Part shown: in pieces, positions 14,256 through 20,557 of the stretch
Numbering within the stretch: position 1 is the stretch's first letter
Layout: each line of letters starts with the position of its first letter
NCBI RefSeq assembly: GCF_012516395.1
Contig: NZ_CP051206.1
Location: 4,655,334-4,719,333 of the forward strand
Length of the DNA stretch: 64,000 nt
Direction: 5' to 3'
Source: Dolichospermum flos-aquae CCAP 1403/13F
GTDB lineage: Bacteria; Cyanobacteriota; Cyanobacteriia; Cyanobacteriales; Nostocaceae
Notes under the pieces: model-generated
What the model was told of the DNA's origin: nothing
What the model saw: only the letters and a program-made list of their open reading frames with translations
The model's database searches: none
Made by a program: the position numbers and the translations under genes

Positions 14256-14636
14256 ATGAAGTATTTAACACTAAAACAAAAACAATATTTAGCAGAAATA
14301 GCTAACAGTTATGCTAATTTACAATGTGTTCAATGTGCTGTAGCTATAAAAAACTATTTACAACTGGTAGGAATCCAAGGCAAACTAATTACAATTAATA
14401 CACAAGCTGATTTAGATTATCGTAATTGTTTTCTTTATGATGATAGTATTGGAGGTGATGCCATTTCAGAAACAGGATATCATGAAGGAGTTATGGTTAT
14501 AATAGATGGGATAGAAATTGTTTTTGACAATCATCATCCTCAAGGAGTAGCAAAGGTAGAATGGTTAGCTAATTTTCAATTTTTTGGTAAAATTCATTTA
14601 GGACAAGAGTTAATAGTCATTGAAGAAAACTTTTAA
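14256..14636 (+). CDS. Papain-fold toxin domain protein
   Basis: A 126-residue protein that matches the small papain-fold toxin family (Tox-PL type) seen in cyanobacterial conflict loci. The catalytic cysteine would be C24 or C27 in LQCVQCAVAIKNYL, the histidine H76 in GYHEGVMV, and the third residue D91 or N92 in FDNHHPQG. No signal peptide, export domain or polymorphic-toxin leader is attached, so it would act inside the producing cell or be a stand-alone cassette. It is followed after 20 bp by a candidate immunity gene. Peptidase or deamidase activity is inferred from the fold only. Confidence 0.72.
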   Translation: MKYLTLKQKQYLAEIANSYANLQCVQCAVAIKNYLQLVGIQGKLITINTQADLDYRNCFLYDDSIGGDAISETGYHEGVMVIIDGIEIVFDNHHPQGVAKVEWLANFQFFGKIHLGQELIVIEENF

Positions 14637-14656
14637 TCAATATTCAGGAGAAAATT

Positions 14657-15034
14657 ATGCTAGATATAACTATCGCTAATGGTAATAAAAATAGTCAAGA
14701 ATATCTCTATGAGTTATTAACTAGAATTAAACAACGCCCAGGAATGTATTTAGGAAAAGTATCTATAACTCGGTTAAAAATGTTATTGATGGGTTACAGT
14801 ATGTCCAGAGGTGAGTTAGGGTTACAACTAACACAACAAGAAAAACAATTTGCTCAATTTCAGAAATGGATACAAGGAAAATATCAAATTAATTCTACTG
14901 AAGGTTGGGAAAGTATTATTTTGTCTCAAGTAGAGGATGAAAAATTAGCTTGTGATTTATTTTTTCAATTATTGGAACAATTTAAGAATGAAATTTTAGA
15001 GTTGGATAAACTGACTGTAACAGTAGGAAAATAA
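14657..15034 (+). CDS. Putative immunity protein for the papain-fold toxin
   Basis: A 125-residue acidic, helical protein with no signal or membrane segment. The segment IKQRPGMYLGKVSITRLKMLLMGY is reminiscent of small immunity-like proteins that follow toxin genes in cyanobacteria. It lies 20 bp downstream of the toxin gene with an AGGAG site before its ATG, so cotranscription is likely. The immunity role is inferred from position and resemblance; I cannot assign a named family. Confidence 0.55.
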   Translation: MLDITIANGNKNSQEYLYELLTRIKQRPGMYLGKVSITRLKMLLMGYSMSRGELGLQLTQQEKQFAQFQKWIQGKYQINSTEGWESIILSQVEDEKLACDLFFQLLEQFKNEILELDKLTVTVGK

Positions 15035-15318: not shown

Positions 15319-15546
15319 ATGAATCAAACTATCAATAAAATTGTGGAATCAATTGAGTCTCTTTCTGGTGAAGAAAAATATTTATTATTTGAGCAATTAG
15401 CTAAAAGAAAATTATTTAATGGTTATGAAAAACTATATCCAAATGTCGGAGAATCTTTAGAAATAGCTGAATCTGATTTTAATGATTATCTTTCTAATTT
15501 AGAAGATTATGAAGATAGATTGGCAAAAGGAGAAATTAAGTGGTAG
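15319..15546 (+). CDS. Antitoxin of a MazEF-type module
   Basis: A 75-residue acidic protein beginning MNQTINKIVESIESLSGEE and ending EDYEDRLAKGEIKW. Size, charge and the seven-base overlap with the downstream MazF-type toxin gene mark it as the cognate antitoxin. It carries no obvious AbrB or ribbon-helix-helix signature, so the class is open. An AGGAG site lies before its ATG. Its last 28 bases are duplicated at 14211. Confidence 0.7.
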   Translation: MNQTINKIVESIESLSGEEKYLLFEQLAKRKLFNGYEKLYPNVGESLEIAESDFNDYLSNLEDYEDRLAKGEIKW

Positions 15547-15920
15547 ATATAAAAAGAGGAGATATTGTTTTATGTGATCTTAATCCAGTTAGAGGAACAG
15601 AACAGGCAGGAATTAGACCAGTTGTAATTGTACAAATAGATCAAGCTAATAAAGTTAGTCCTCATACAATTATTGTACCTTTGACTTCAAAAATTCGACA
15701 AACTATTTTAACATCTCATGTATTTATACCCGCTAATACTGGGGGCTTAAAACAGGATTCAGTTATTTTATGTGAGCAAATTAGAGTAATAGATAAATTA
15801 AGAATTAACAAAATTATTGGTCATTTAGAAGATGATTATTTATTTAAATTAGAACAAGCATTATCTGTAATTTTAGGGATTAATTTTAACAAAACAGAAA
15901 AAATTATTGATGAACTTTGA
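15540..15920 (+). CDS. mazF: MazF/PemK-family mRNA interferase toxin
   Basis: A 126-residue toxin. Family features are IKRGDIVLCDLNPVRGTEQAGIRPVVIVQ at the N-terminus (basic RGD and RPVVIV strands), the conserved TSKIR segment, and SVILCEQIRVIDK. It starts with GTG inside the antitoxin's terminal codons, which fits translational coupling. MazF enzymes cut single-stranded mRNA at short sites. All core motifs are present, so it is probably active when freed from its antitoxin. Confidence 0.88.
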   Translation: MVDIKRGDIVLCDLNPVRGTEQAGIRPVVIVQIDQANKVSPHTIIVPLTSKIRQTILTSHVFIPANTGGLKQDSVILCEQIRVIDKLRINKIIGHLEDDYLFKLEQALSVILGINFNKTEKIIDEL

Positions 15921-15933
15921 AATAAATAATTAT

Positions 15934-16194
15934 ATGGAAACAATAACTTTAAATTCTCATGTTGGTGAAGATGGAATATTACATTTAGATATTCCTGTAA
16001 ATATGGTTAATGCTGATTTAACTATTACTATTAATTTAAAACATAGTGATGATTTTCAACAGGACAATAAACCAAAAGGAAAAGGTTGGCCTGCTAATTT
16101 TTTTGAGGAAACATCAGGATGTTTAAAAGATACTCCTTTAACTATAGATTCAGAAGGTGTTTATGATGATTTAGAGGAGTTTAAATTGTCATGA
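15934..16194 (+). CDS. VapB-type antitoxin (orphan)
   Basis: An 86-residue protein starting METITLNSHVGEDGILHLDIP, the N-terminal DNA-binding strand pattern seen in cyanobacterial VapB-like antitoxins. The C-terminal KGWPANFFEETSGCL is the usual toxin-binding peptide of this group. I preferred the ATG at 15934 over one at 15907, because family members start METITL. The stop overlaps, in ATGA fashion, the ATG of a decapitated VapC. It lies 13 bp beyond the mazF stop and could be cotranscribed with it. Confidence 0.7.
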   Translation: METITLNSHVGEDGILHLDIPVNMVNADLTITINLKHSDDFQQDNKPKGKGWPANFFEETSGCLKDTPLTIDSEGVYDDLEEFKLS

Positions 16195-16223
16195 AATATT
16201 TGTGAGATACAAATGTACTTACT
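16191..16223 (+). pseudogene. Decapitated VapC PIN-domain toxin start
   Basis: The frame beginning at the ATG overlapping the vapB stop reads MKYL, a TGA stop, then DTNVL. This is the canonical VapC start MKYLLDTNVL with one codon changed to stop. The PIN domain is then replaced by the 3' end of the WD40 gene from the other strand. The toxin is certainly lost. Confidence 0.65.
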
Positions 16224-17814
16224 ATCTTTGTTGCCAAAATTTAATAGTTTTATCTTTGCTACCACTAATTAATATTTGAGTATTTGGAATAAAAGTAAGA
16301 GATGTAACAGCACTATCATGTTGCTTTATTTCATCAAAAGGAAGTAACTTTTTATTAATAAAATCCCAAATTTTAATATAACCTTTATTGTCACCACTGG
16401 CTAATAACTTACCATTTGAACTGAATGTAATTGTGTTAATTATATCATGACCTAGATCACTAGAATTTTCTTCTTCTAAAATACCTACTTCCTCACCAAG
16501 AAGATTCCATAATTTTATTTGATAATTATCCTCACCCACACTTGCTAAAATTTTACCATCAGGATTAAATGCTAACGAATTAATCTTCATGCCATTGTGT
16601 ATTTTGTGAGCATTCATAATTTCATGTTTTTCACATATAGTTAAATCTACTATTTCCCAAAAACATATATTTCCTCCACTGTCGGAACTCGCAAGAGTTT
16701 TATTATCGCTACTAATTGTAATTGATGTTATTTGTTTACCAATCCCGTGTTGTTGATTATCAATATTTTTTTGTGTTTTCCAATTAAACAATTGGATAGT
16801 TCCATCTTTACAACCGCAAATAATTAAATCTTTATTTATAAATGATAAGGAAGTAATTCTAGTATTGTTACCACCTTGTATTAATATTGAATATTTTTCT
16901 TTGCAATTATGATCATATATTTTAATGTAATTAATGTCTCCGTTTACTATCCCCGTTGCTATATAATCGTTTTGATTAATTGATGTAGGACTTTGATGAT
17001 AAATACCTGGTTCTGCTCGTTGTACAAGTTCTAATATTTGTTCTCCAACAAAAGGAATGTTATTGATTAGTTTTGAGGGAAAAATTTGATGTTTCTTTTC
17101 TAATTTATTTTGATCATCATATTTAATATCTTCTCCATTTGTAGCATCAAACGGAACTCTAGCTAATGTTTGCCAAGTATCATCAAATCTTACAGCCAAA
17201 AAAGTACCTTGAGTAGAAATATCAAAATCACATATTTCATGATCAAGTTTTATTTTATGTAATAGATCCCATTTTTTCTGAGAACTGTCCTCAATTTTGG
17301 GAGAATTTGTGTAAGGTTCTTGAATAATTAATTCAAAATATTCTGATGAGGTTTCAAAATTTTGTAATTTTGAAGGAATTGTTGCTTTTGGACTACTCCA
17401 CTGCCAAAATGCTTGATAAGGGTGTTTAATGTCATTATGGATTTTAGCAAAAATGTCCTCATCAACTTTTATTTTTGTTAATTTATTCCTAAAAACAACA
17501 CCTTCAATAAATGGAATTTCTCTACCGAAAGAATCTTTAATTATGCCATCTCCGGGTATTCCCATATCTTTATAAGTTGTTTCAATTACACGAAATACTA
17601 ACGTTAAATCACCCACAGGAGAATTATGGATTTGACGACATATTGCTTTTTTAGCTTCTGTTACATTTCCTCCAGCAACAGACTCAATGAAACTAGATAC
17701 TCTAGCATCACACATGAAATCAGGTGCAACTATTGTTCTAAATCCAAGATTTTTACTACGACTAATGAGGAAAACCCAACCTTCTATTTTTTCCATACTA
17801 TATTTTGTCATCAT
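16222..17814 (-). CDS. WD40-repeat protein with unassigned N-terminal domain
   Basis: A 530-residue protein. The C-terminal part (about 290-530) holds five or six WD40 blades, for example ITSITISSDNKTLASSDSG and INSLAFNPDGKILASVGED, each ending in a W/F-x-W-like dipeptide. Residues 1 to about 190 form a separate domain (EGWVFLISRSKNLGFRTIVAPDF) that I cannot name. No signal peptide or helix is seen. It begins 27 bp after the GTPase gene, same strand, so the two form an operon. A scaffold or sensor role for the GTPase is inferred. The gene's 3' end overlaps a destroyed vapC. Confidence 0.75.
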   Translation of the reverse strand: MMTKYSMEKIEGWVFLISRSKNLGFRTIVAPDFMCDARVSSFIESVAGGNVTEAKKAICRQIHNSPVGDLTLVFRVIETTYKDMGIPGDGIIKDSFGREIPFIEGVVFRNKLTKIKVDEDIFAKIHNDIKHPYQAFWQWSSPKATIPSKLQNFETSSEYFELIIQEPYTNSPKIEDSSQKKWDLLHKIKLDHEICDFDISTQGTFLAVRFDDTWQTLARVPFDATNGEDIKYDDQNKLEKKHQIFPSKLINNIPFVGEQILELVQRAEPGIYHQSPTSINQNDYIATGIVNGDINYIKIYDHNCKEKYSILIQGGNNTRITSLSFINKDLIICGCKDGTIQLFNWKTQKNIDNQQHGIGKQITSITISSDNKTLASSDSGGNICFWEIVDLTICEKHEIMNAHKIHNGMKINSLAFNPDGKILASVGEDNYQIKLWNLLGEEVGILEEENSSDLGHDIINTITFSSNGKLLASGDNKGYIKIWDFINKKLLPFDEIKQHDSAVTSLTFIPNTQILISGSKDKTIKFWQQR

Positions 17815-17841
17815 TTAACTTCTTGATTTAATCTAATTAAT

Positions 17842-19023
17842 TTAATTGGTTAATTTAGAGTCTGGATGTTCATATTCTAATTTATCTACAAGCGATAAAA
17901 AACAACGAGTAGAATATTCTAAAGCAGTTTTCTCATTGTCAATTTTTGCTAAAGCTTCTATTTTTTTATTTCTTAATTGTTCTGTTCTTTCTTTAGCTGC
18001 GATTTCTTTATCATATACAGATGTTTGCAATTCTTGATCAATAAAATCAATAATATCTGTAAGTATTTCCTTTGAAAAAAATTGAAACTTGGGAGGTAAT
18101 TTAGGTGTTACTATTTCCAGGATTGTTTTAGTAGTTTTACCAAAATATTTTTTGAGTCTATCCCATAAAGTTAAATTAGCTTTGACTTCTTGAACCTGTT
18201 CTTCAGATTTTTTCTTCTCCTCATTAATCATTTTTCTTAACTCTTCTTGTAGCTTATCAGGTAGAATACAAGCTATAGGTAATTCTATATTATAAGGTTT
18301 AGGTAGTTTTCCTGTTTTTTTCATACTACCATCAGTTTGTTGTTCTGCAAAACCTTTACCAACTGAACTAACAGGAATTAATCGAATAACACCTTTATCA
18401 TTTCCATTATTATTACTCCGAGTCATAATAATATTGCGGAACTGCTCTATTTCTAACAGATGATTTTTAACTTCTTCTAGGGTATATTCATCTTCTATTA
18501 AATCCCATTTACTAATAATAAAATGAATAGATTCATTTGTATTTTGCATTAAATTCAATACGTTTGCCAATTCTTTAGTTACCCATATATTACCTGACTC
18601 TTCACCCTTAATATATGAAAGTAACCGCGAACCATCTATTAAACCTAATAAAACATCTGCATTTTTTATTGTCTCACCAAATTTTTCAACTTGTGTACGA
18701 TCATCTTTTCCCTCTGTTAGTATTTCACCTGAATAATCTGTATACTGAAATTGACAAGCTGAATAAATACCTTTCTGAGTCTGTATTTTACAAGTAAATT
18801 TCCAATTAGATATACCATTGACAAATTGTGTTGATTCTGGCCATTTTTTACCAGTAGCAACTTCAGTATAAATCTGATTTAGAATTATTCGTTGAGCATC
18901 ATCTACCGCCAAGAAAAATCCTGATTCTCCCTGTGTTGAGAGTTTATGATACATACTCCCTAAAAACACAGTTTTACCTGAACCAGATGGACCCAAAATA
19001 ACTACATTATAAGTTGGTAGCAT
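17842..19023 (-). CDS. P-loop GTPase of a conflict-type system
   Basis: A 393-residue protein. G1/Walker A is GPSGSGKT (11-18), the switch II region is DYSGE (96-100), the base-recognition motif is SKWD (171-174) and a G5-like PVSS lies at 217-220. The C-terminal third (about 255-390) is helical and charged, with coiled-coil potential (EELRKMINEEKKKSEEQVQE) and no obvious membrane helix. The motif set resembles the GTPases found with WD40, vWA or TPR proteins in bacterial conflict systems. It is the first gene of the operon with the WD40 protein and is divergent from the STAND gene. Confidence 0.72.
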   Translation of the reverse strand: MLPTYNVVILGPSGSGKTVFLGSMYHKLSTQGESGFFLAVDDAQRIILNQIYTEVATGKKWPESTQFVNGISNWKFTCKIQTQKGIYSACQFQYTDYSGEILTEGKDDRTQVEKFGETIKNADVLLGLIDGSRLLSYIKGEESGNIWVTKELANVLNLMQNTNESIHFIISKWDLIEDEYTLEEVKNHLLEIEQFRNIIMTRSNNNGNDKGVIRLIPVSSVGKGFAEQQTDGSMKKTGKLPKPYNIELPIACILPDKLQEELRKMINEEKKKSEEQVQEVKANLTLWDRLKKYFGKTTKTILEIVTPKLPPKFQFFSKEILTDIIDFIDQELQTSVYDKEIAAKERTEQLRNKKIEALAKIDNEKTALEYSTRCFLSLVDKLEYEHPDSKLTN

Positions 19024-19219
19024 AAATTGTCTCTAAGTATCAATACAGTAATTTTTCGATTTTTTACCCCACGTTATATCTATCATCTTTTTTTATTATC
19101 TAAAAGACTGTTTAATACTGTGTTTTGTAATGAACTGTTAAAGAAATGTATTAAAATAGCTTAGAATGATGCGTAAAAATACGCTATAATTCCTGAAAAC
19201 CTTATCATGATTTAATTTT
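19024..19219. promoter_or_regulatory. Divergent promoter region of GTPase and STAND genes
   Basis: 196 bp of AT-rich sequence separate the two divergent starts. Both promoters must lie here, so the two units are probably co-regulated, perhaps by the HTH of the STAND protein. I do not see a clear palindromic operator. Confidence 0.5.
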
Positions 19220-20557
19220 ATGGATGTTACAGAAATTTTACAATTTGCAGATCAATTGATCTTAAATAAAACAGGAAAACGTTTAGATGATCTGCAAAAA
19301 ACTGTAATTACAGGAGTTTATGATGGAAAAACTTATGAAACAATAGCAGATGAATGTCATCGCAGCGAAAGTCGCGTTAGAAGTGTTGGACGTAAACTAT
19401 GGCAAATTTTATCAGAATCTTTAGGAGAAGATGTTAATAAGCATAATTTTTGTTGGACTATAGAAAGAGTTATTAATTCTCAGCTTGTTAATATTGTTAA
19501 TAGTAATATTCATTATTGTCATAATAATAAAGAATCTTCTGAAAATACAGAACAAAGTATTAAAGATCAAGTCTATCACGATTTAACCATTGCTCCTAAA
19601 ATTAATCGTTTTTGTGATCGCACTGCGGAAATTGATACTTTATCCAATTGGATATTAAATCAAAATACTCATTTAATCTCAATCTTAGGATTATCCGGTA
19701 TTGGTAAAACCACACTCGTTAAAAGATTTATAGACTTACATCAACAAAAGTTTGATGCTATAGTTTGGAGAAGTTTAAAATTCCCCCAATCTTTAAATTT
19801 ATTACTTGATGATTTACTAAAACATCACAAATTAGACTCATTACCAACAATAAATGATAAATTAAAACAATTATTTGATATTCTCACAAATAAAAAATGT
19901 TTAATTATCCTTGATGATTTACAAAATATCTTTATTCCTAGTCAATTCGCGGGAAAATATCAACCAGAATATCAAGATTATCAAACCCTATTCAAAATGA
20001 TTACAGAAACCCAACATCAAAGTAGCGTCATATTAATTAGTCAAGAACAATGTCCAGAAATGGAATGTTTAGATGAAGAACTATATCCTATTAAATCTTT
20101 AGAATTATCAGGTTTAGATAATCCAGAAATTCTCAAAAATACCGGATTAAAAAATAAGGATAGTTGGTTAAAATTAATCAAATTATATGAAGGTAATTTA
20201 CTGTATTTAAAAAGTATTAGTATCCTAATCAATAAAAATTATGATGATCAAGTTGCTGATTTTTTAGCTGAAAATACTTTACATATTACCAATCAAATGC
20301 AGTCTCATTTTCAAGAGACATTTCACCACCTATCACCCCAAGAACAACAAATAGTATTAGAACTAAGTAAATTTGAAAACCCTATTTCCAGAGAAGAATT
20401 AAGACAAAGTTTAAATTTATCCTCAGTTGATTTTAATAATGGTTTACAATCCTTACAACAACGGTATTTAGTCACGAAAATAAAAGAAGATAGAATTCTG
20501 TTTAAATTATCTCCAGTTTTTCAAGAATATATGAGAAATCCGGGGCTAGTTATCTAG
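19220..20557 (+). CDS. HTH-NB-ARC STAND NTPase without sensor repeats
   Basis: A 445-residue protein. Residues 1 to about 75 form an HTH-like domain (FADQLILNKTGKRLDDLQKT, then YETIADECHRSESRVRSVGR) of the kind that precedes many cyanobacterial STAND and vWA-MoxR-associated proteins. NB-ARC follows with Walker A GLSGIGKTT (157-165) and Walker B CLIILDDLQ (227-235). The usual GLPLAL motif is degenerate (EGNLLYLK). A winged helix spans about 365-440, and the protein then ends. Relatives normally continue into WD40 or TPR sensors, which are absent here. It is divergent from the GTPase-WD40 operon, which suggests the sensor may be supplied in trans. Confidence 0.78.
   Translation: MDVTEILQFADQLILNKTGKRLDDLQKTVITGVYDGKTYETIADECHRSESRVRSVGRKLWQILSESLGEDVNKHNFCWTIERVINSQLVNIVNSNIHYCHNNKESSENTEQSIKDQVYHDLTIAPKINRFCDRTAEIDTLSNWILNQNTHLISILGLSGIGKTTLVKRFIDLHQQKFDAIVWRSLKFPQSLNLLLDDLLKHHKLDSLPTINDKLKQLFDILTNKKCLIILDDLQNIFIPSQFAGKYQPEYQDYQTLFKMITETQHQSSVILISQEQCPEMECLDEELYPIKSLELSGLDNPEILKNTGLKNKDSWLKLIKLYEGNLLYLKSISILINKNYDDQVADFLAENTLHITNQMQSHFQETFHHLSPQEQQIVLELSKFENPISREELRQSLNLSSVDFNNGLQSLQQRYLVTKIKEDRILFKLSPVFQEYMRNPGLVI

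Follow-up and report, generated by a model that had tools for sequence, protein, structure and literature searches.

Sensor-less STAND proteins with phased promoter repeats and varied divergent partners, examined from a GTPase–WD40 operon of Dolichospermum flos-aquae

We analysed a stretch of 64,000 nucleotides from Dolichospermum flos-aquae CCAP 1403/13F (NZ_CP051206.1, positions 4,655,334 to 4,719,333; here called the window) that carries a GTPase gene, a gene for a WD40 protein, and, in the opposite orientation, a gene for a STAND NTPase composed of a helix–turn–helix (HTH) region and an NB-ARC domain. The STAND is one of a family of short proteins that face unrelated genes head to head and have direct repeats of regular spacing upstream of their start codons. 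This general pattern of sensor-less STANDs, matching phased repeats and exchangeable divergent cargo is a stronger finding than the trio of genes from which we started. For the trio itself we favour, at a probability of about 0.6, the reading that it is a modular cassette in which a repeat-binding, sensor-less STAND controls both itself and an exchangeable divergent partner operon.

A prediction made from the DNA alone (the original prediction) had described a GTPase with G1, G3 and G4 motifs, a WD40 gene 27 bp downstream and a divergent HTH-NB-ARC protein, all of which is borne out by the open reading frames (ORFs) and motifs. The trio consists of three intact ORFs (gene calls are longest ORFs throughout), arranged as follows:

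16222..17814, minus strand: ND-WD40 protein, 530 aa, second gene of the operon (ORF, Pfam)
17815..17841: gap of 27 bp between the GTPase and ND-WD40 genes
17842..19023, minus strand: DO-GTPase-family GTPase, 393 aa, a Ras-like TRAFAC G domain with a helical C-terminus
19024..19219, no strand: intergenic region of 196 bp between the GTPase operon and the STAND gene
19127..19149, plus strand: weak direct repeat, 9/12 matches at lag 11, at the place of phased arrays in relatives
19171..19184: perfect palindrome GCGTAAAAATACGC, adjoining the -10-like box of the STAND gene
19185..19190: TATAAT -10-like box of the STAND gene, read from the sequence
19220..20557, plus strand: sensor-less HTH-NB-ARC STAND, 445 aa, intact, divergent

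Short STANDs, their partners and their phased repeats

The window STAND has a sigma-r4-like HTH at residues 21–56 (PF04545, E 4.4e-5, 23.3 bits, just below the cut-off of 24.1) and an NB-ARC domain (PF00931, 37.3 bits, cut-off 23.5), and no repeat or sensor domain (TPR, WD40) is among the 20 Pfam families listed for it. Matches at E<=1e-30 were found in all 16 genomes of the genus, with 1–10 in each, and in 53 of 194 genomes across the phylum, and six other genomes hold 14–21 matches each at E<=1e-20; these per-genome counts include fragments and frames of ~1,200 aa. A search of phages gave no match at 1e-10, and 17 plasmid records matched, each at <60% identity. The short STANDs are a sensor-less HTH-NB-ARC family of their own, often with many copies per genome. 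The description of the window protein as stopping after its winged helix is true of the sequence but does not reflect a loss, as about 430–500 aa is the normal length for the family. We rejected the idea, raised beforehand, that the gene is a 3'-truncated copy of a longer one: the short family stands apart in length, orientation and repeats, and its existence explains why the gene looked truncated. The proposal that the sensor has been moved to a separate protein is not supported either, given a sensor-less family that is found throughout the genus and faces many unrelated partners.

We collected 69 STAND copies of 380–560 aa with their flanks from 19 genomes, chosen from those listed per genome for being almost complete and not lying at the start of a contig. 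The upstream gene is head to head in 64 of them, at a median distance of 203.5 bp; the five same-strand upstream ORFs are 57–91 aa long and may be spurious, as may some of the small head-to-head ORFs. With six loci that had been picked for GTPase linkage left out, 58/63 copies are head to head compared with 146/408 control genes (p 3e-18), the controls being genes of at least 150 aa in GTPase loci, and a spacing of 150–260 bp is seen in 40/63 copies compared with 33/408 controls. Among 20 long relatives (frames of ~1,200 aa, several with doubtful starts), 9 are head to head and 11 are not; the arrangement thus belongs to the short STAND family.

The partners are diverse. The commonest in the genus is a DNA methylase with a restriction-endonuclease-like tail, and others include a group XII phospholipase-A2-like protein, vWA proteins, dynamin/AIG1-like GTPases, an AAA ATPase, GUN4, DUF3825, a subtilase (protease) with Calx-beta repeats and a ferredoxin-like protein. 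Many are small, several with signal-peptide-like starts as judged by eye; the small partners scanned gave no telling match, including ten searched against NCBIfam at 0.01, and no domain common to all partners was found among 30 proteins scanned. Two of the small partners, encoded at L231:2124-2300 and L253:4319-4495 (L denotes a locus record), are alike 58-aa peptides that face STANDs in two genera; they are precursor-like and have no NCBIfam match.

Phased repeats were assessed in 46 non-redundant 150-bp regions upstream of STANDs (thinned at 55% identity) against dinucleotide shuffles. Self-similarity peaks at a lag of 10 (z 15.0; 13.1 on a rerun), with weaker peaks at lags 9, 20, 29–30 and 43–44, and the lag-10 value is z 0.3 in 37 control head-to-head regions and z 1.1 in the upstream DNA of the 20 long relatives. 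The best repeat segment starts 40–95 bp before the start codon in 38 of the 46 regions, and 32 of them have a TATAAT-like -10 box between -60 and -15, a count made without a control set. The repeat unit differs between copies (for example, GTCGGA, GTGGGA and TTTAGTA), and across 43 copies its similarity correlates with that of the HTH region (r 0.32); the three copies dropped from this set (L227, L228 and L229), which are included in the 69 and the 46, have a different N-terminus. In partial Mantel tests on the same copies, the correlation holds for the HTH given NB-ARC (r 0.28, 0/2000 permutations) and vanishes for NB-ARC given the HTH (r -0.01). As judged from these sequence comparisons, the repeat tracks the HTH region and not NB-ARC. 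The suggestion that the HTH acts as a regulator gains indirect support from the head-to-head bias, the phased repeats and this co-variation, which are consistent with a regulatory role.

A search of four genomes for TCGGA-type repeat pairs returned 26 sites, and the reversed pattern 4. Of the 26, 11 have a listed STAND no more than 250 bp downstream; this count is partly circular because the pattern was drawn from arrays in some of the same genomes. GTCGGA-type pairs away from any listed STAND, such as those at G530:C78:15673-15708 and G748:C59:298854-299037 (G denotes a genome, C a contig), could represent a wider regulon or unlisted cassettes.

Comparison of the window with related genomes reveals different partners beside similar STANDs. 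Three segments are relevant:

15933..16217: left flank, homologous to DNA beyond other partners in relatives
19101..20537, plus strand: STAND-side part of the intergenic region and the STAND, common to G048 and G055
19647..20537, plus strand: part of the STAND after the HTH, 96% identical in G047

Homology begins at 19101 both in G048 (93% and 97% for the two parts that an insert separates) and in G055 (84%), and in both the partner of the STAND is a phospholipase-A2-like gene (Pfam scan in G055 only, the G048 gene being 93% identical to it over 122 residues). In G047 the homology starts only at 19647, so that this genome has another HTH, another promoter and another partner, a protein of 113 aa, and in G051, where it starts at 19651, only that part of the STAND remains. 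The left flank matches G055 at 15933-16217 (89%) and G047 at 15933-16158 (96%). Taken together, the flank and STAND homologies mean that the partner differs between loci with similar flanks, and that the breakpoints fall either within the promoter or between the HTH and NB-ARC regions. The G048 block lies near aroA, as in the window, with no FetB in the 18 kb examined; neither aroA nor FetB was matched within the 19 kb examined in G055. The palindrome GCGTAAAAATACGC has a single-base difference in G048, G055 and G050. The G048 STAND is broken by its insert, which contains a 399-aa transposase-like ORF (L103:9590-10904). Duplicated aroA 3' ends lie in G047 beside a STAND 3' fragment that is 94% identical to the window (L102:6160-7810), and these duplicated ends together are signs of repeated insertion or recombination.

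The GTPase and ND operon and recurrence of the trio

Direct reading of the GTPase gives the motifs GPSGSGKT (G1), DYSGE (G3) and SKWD (G4), and the protein matches both PF19975 DO-GTPase1 (E 1.8e-12, 47.6 bits, cut-off 27) and PF19993 DO-GTPase2 (E 1.9e-8, 34.7 bits, cut-off 27). In a set of 38 such GTPases all match PF19975 and 37 match PF19993 (E<=0.01). Its structural model, with a predicted local distance difference test score (pLDDT) of 87, has Ras-like, EF-1-alpha and YcjX GTPases as fold matches, and the best match to PDB sequences has an E of only 0.32. The GTPase was present in 32 of 217 genomes of the family searched and had no match on plasmids at 1e-10. The gene products of the operon can be subdivided further:

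16222..16947, minus strand: WD40 propeller region, residues about 290–530, the variable part of the ND protein
17371..17814, minus strand: ND domain, ~140 residues, N-terminal, alpha/beta, conserved
17869..18282, minus strand: helical C-terminal extension of the GTPase, residues 248–385 (DSSP on the model)

ND is our name for the first ~140 residues of the WD40 protein. The WD40 repeats are in the C-terminal half (PF00400, E 1.1e-32), and no Pfam family matches the N-terminal 242 residues significantly (best E 0.17); 32 ND members searched against Pfam reached a best E of 0.092. Residues F15, L16, P31, F33, R98, G105 and F136 are invariant in 31 ND sequences. The AlphaFold model of ND has a mean pLDDT of 90, and a fold search of the PDB returned no chain at E<=0.001 (best E 0.022), with TM-scores <=0.42 among the 50 matches listed; PAS, LOV and longin-like folds recur among these, none convincingly. 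PADLOC candidates in the window were set aside: HEAT-ARM_XIII (E 9e-13) is a partial match covering only 71 residues of the WD40 protein, and mad8 (E 3e-5) and PDC-S27 (E 1.5e-6) are partial or weak.

An ND protein is encoded downstream of the GTPase in 31 of 33 loci of relatives (window excluded), split in one, and the two loci without it hold GTPase fragments only. By profile, ND was found in 13/386 genomes across the phylum and 31/388 across the order. A scan of genome contigs for the operon yielded 33 loci, all cyanobacterial by title, and is biased to close relatives because a single peptide pattern was used. We examined 87 locus records, in 77 of which both genes were called; removal of 23 duplicates left 54 distinct loci. 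Ten records were set aside as incomplete or atypical, but two of these, L120 and L180, are one intact locus with an over-long GTPase start, giving 55 distinct GTPase+ND loci.

The architecture of these loci varies. One GTPase with an ND-WD40 protein is found in 25 (L011, truncated by the contig end, and L131, where Pfam detects part of a WD40, were placed here by judgement) and two GTPases in 19. In the other 11, a single GTPase is accompanied by an ND protein that is short or transmembrane, transmembrane segments being called from hydrophobicity by a simple rule. Loci of the Moorena/Okeania type have WD40 on the second GTPase instead, as a fusion, and their ND protein usually has a predicted transmembrane segment. 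Small CD225 or DUF2752 genes lie between the GTPase-WD40 and ND genes in all four double-GTPase loci scanned; CD225 (interferon-induced transmembrane) genes are in L106 and L109 and DUF2752 genes in L106 and L055 (L106:5975-6741, L055:1478-1921, L109:6420-6725). One ND protein (L066:5591-6793) has a long C-terminal region without a Pfam family match. GTPase and ND are thus a recurring core in scattered cyanobacteria, in which the WD40 part varies. The placement of WD40 on either the ND protein or a second GTPase suggests that the two proteins work together.

The operon has a head-to-head STAND in 9/55 loci, from six genera and three families: the window, L039 and L011, which are of one genus, and L120, L130, L131, L176, L183 and L188. 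All belong to the class with a single GTPase and an ND-WD40 protein (9/25 versus 0/30, p 3e-4). Six linked STANDs that we compared are 34–56% identical across genera, and each of those outside the genus of the window has an unlinked copy as its closest relative. Because the linked STANDs are divergent and nearest to unlinked copies, the pairing probably arose several times. The STAND as an obligatory third component was rejected on the count of trio loci. The original prediction is partly supported, in that the head-to-head trio recurs; rare co-occurrence, which it named as a refuting outcome, is true of the STAND (9/55) but not of the pairing of GTPase and ND protein.

A possible mechanism and the alternatives

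In a modular cassette of the kind we favour, the N-terminal HTH of the STAND would bind direct repeats that recur in the shared promoter at roughly every turn of the helix, the ATP-state protein would assemble side by side on these repeats, and in doing so it would switch its own gene and the partner operon together. The partner operon in the window would be a GTP-switched module in which the GTPase and the ND-WD40 protein act together, perhaps by direct contact; ND would be the invariable portion, coupled to the GTPase, and the WD40 propeller a variable portion for sensing or scaffolding. Such a module may have a role in conflict or defence.

Several observations weigh against this reading. 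The array in the window is degenerate and singly not above chance, which is the weakest point for this locus. No STAND lies upstream in 45 of the 55 loci (a further locus, L126, stops at the edge of its contig), so a STAND is not needed for the operon to work; of the nine linked STANDs, those of L130 and L188 are in pieces and that of L011 is cut by the contig end. In addition, 15 of the 26 TCGGA-type pairs are not beside a listed STAND. In the head-to-head comparison, the 408 controls still include GTPase, ND and a few STAND genes, and related STAND copies count separately though they are not independent. Finally, the partner-side remainder of the intergenic regions (38 regions) has a lag-10 signal of only z 3.3, set against 13.1 on the STAND side, so that the case for autoregulation is better than that for control of the partner. 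This asymmetry also favours an alternative in which the repeats serve autoregulation only and the STAND acts on its partner at the protein level, as a guard, antidote or scaffold. The -10-like box close to the STAND start codon (-60 to -15 in 32/46 regions) and the effector-like nature of several partners (phospholipase-A2-like, subtilase, methylase with a restriction-like tail) point the same way. However, promoter sharing is the simplest explanation for a head-to-head spacing that stays narrow whatever the kind of partner, and no domain common to the 30 partners scanned was found; we consider this alternative unlikely.

Restriction of the trio to single-GTPase ND-WD40 operons, in three families, could instead indicate a dedicated three-protein signalling complex with the WD40 protein as the displaced sensor of the STAND. 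We regard this as decidedly improbable, because the STAND family faces many unrelated partners, similar STAND sequence is kept where the partner differs, linked STANDs outside the genus of the window are closest to unlinked copies, and most of the operons have no STAND upstream. Still less credible, and in our view very improbable, is that operon and STAND are hitch-hiking neighbours in a recombination-prone island with no functional link. The locus is indeed rearranged in relatives (the transposase-like insert, the duplicated aroA and STAND ends) and the trio occurs in a minority of loci, but nine trios among 55 loci, at an assumed chance of ~20/5500 per locus, give a binomial p of 6e-13, and all nine are head to head, with different STANDs.

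Relation to known systems and neighbouring genes

MalT and AfsR are STAND transcription activators that combine an NTPase switch and a DNA-binding domain with a TPR sensor, and MalT uses tandem sites at promoters. The window STAND resembles them in having a DNA-binding domain (its HTH just under the cut-off) and an NTPase, but it differs in the missing sensor domain, the N-terminal position of the HTH, the many copies and the variable divergent cargo. With Avs and other bacterial NLR-like antiviral STANDs, which have a fused effector and a C-terminal sensor (PMC10907252, from the portions available), it shares the STAND NTPase core, whereas neither effector nor sensor was found here. NB-ARC is also an accessory domain of cyanobacterial sigma70-type proteins, according to the available text of PMC11119718, and the joining of a sigma-type region to NB-ARC there parallels the sigma-r4-like HTH joined to NB-ARC here; the words 'divergent' and 'head' are absent from the main text of that paper, whose available portions hold nothing on phased repeats or partner exchange.

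The GTPase invites comparison with the conflict systems of Kaur et al. 2020 (PMC7159879), in which, in the text available, DO-GTPases occur in one or two copies with GAP1 and variable effectors and have a conserved glutamate in Walker B, the exact position of which that text does not state. The likenesses to this portion of the published account are the shared Pfam GTPase families, a GTPase gene followed by a constant partner with a variable C-terminus, two GTPases in some loci (19/55 here, 38% in GAP1 systems) and membrane-linked versions. Here, in contrast, there is ND with WD40, sometimes a head-to-head STAND, no GAP1 match and no conserved glutamate. GAP1 families are absent from the nine Pfam families listed for 32 ND domains (E<=1), the N-terminal half of the window WD40 protein has no GAP1 match in Pfam, and GAP1-N1 was found in 0/291 cyanobacterial genomes in a search in which the control was silent. 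No GASH or FNIII domain is among the <=25 families listed per protein for seven window proteins, and no glutamate is among the invariant or 90% columns of the alignment of 38 GTPases. Membership in GAP1 systems was rejected on the absence of GAP1 and of the glutamate; the GTPase+ND operon may nevertheless work like a GAP1 system, and ND may be a distant homologue of GAP1. The label 'undescribed conflict system' is not supported in full, as the GTPase falls within the DO-GTPase families in the available text of PMC7159879; the ND domain itself is undescribed. We found no description of divergent STAND cassettes in the literature searched, including the available portions of PMC7159879, PMC10907252, PMC11119718 and PMC8195603, which is weak evidence of novelty because most subscription journals lie outside the search.

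Further genes lie beyond the end of the operon. A Tox-PL-2 papain-fold protein (PF15643, E 1.9e-32) and a 125-aa ORF at 14256-15034 are kept at the equivalent place in G052 (93% and 98%). A PemK/MazF-like gene (PF02452) at 15540-16194 overlaps a 95-aa ORF without a Pfam match; it has no match in the G052 locus and a 97% identical copy near a STAND in G047.

The usual view of NLR-like STAND NTPases is that they are receptors to which a sensor and an effector are fused. Joined together, our observations could point to a wider arrangement, which we put forward tentatively and at slightly less than even odds: many cyanobacterial 'ports', each a sensor-less STAND regulator and its private phased operator, which co-evolves with the HTH. 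Effector-like operons would be swapped at these ports through recombination, either within the shared promoter or at the junction of HTH and NTPase. One such cargo would be the GTPase-ND-WD40 operon, a DO-GTPase system that lacks GAP1 and is based on a new domain, and NLR-like NTPase oligomers on DNA would turn infection or stress into expression of the docked cargo. If this is true, a large bacterial family reduced to a switch with a DNA-binding head would provide a natural library in which switches are paired with promoters, and the action of STAND oligomers on DNA could be addressed directly. The GTPase-ND system, related to published conflict systems but free of GAP1, would then be a separate target for study.

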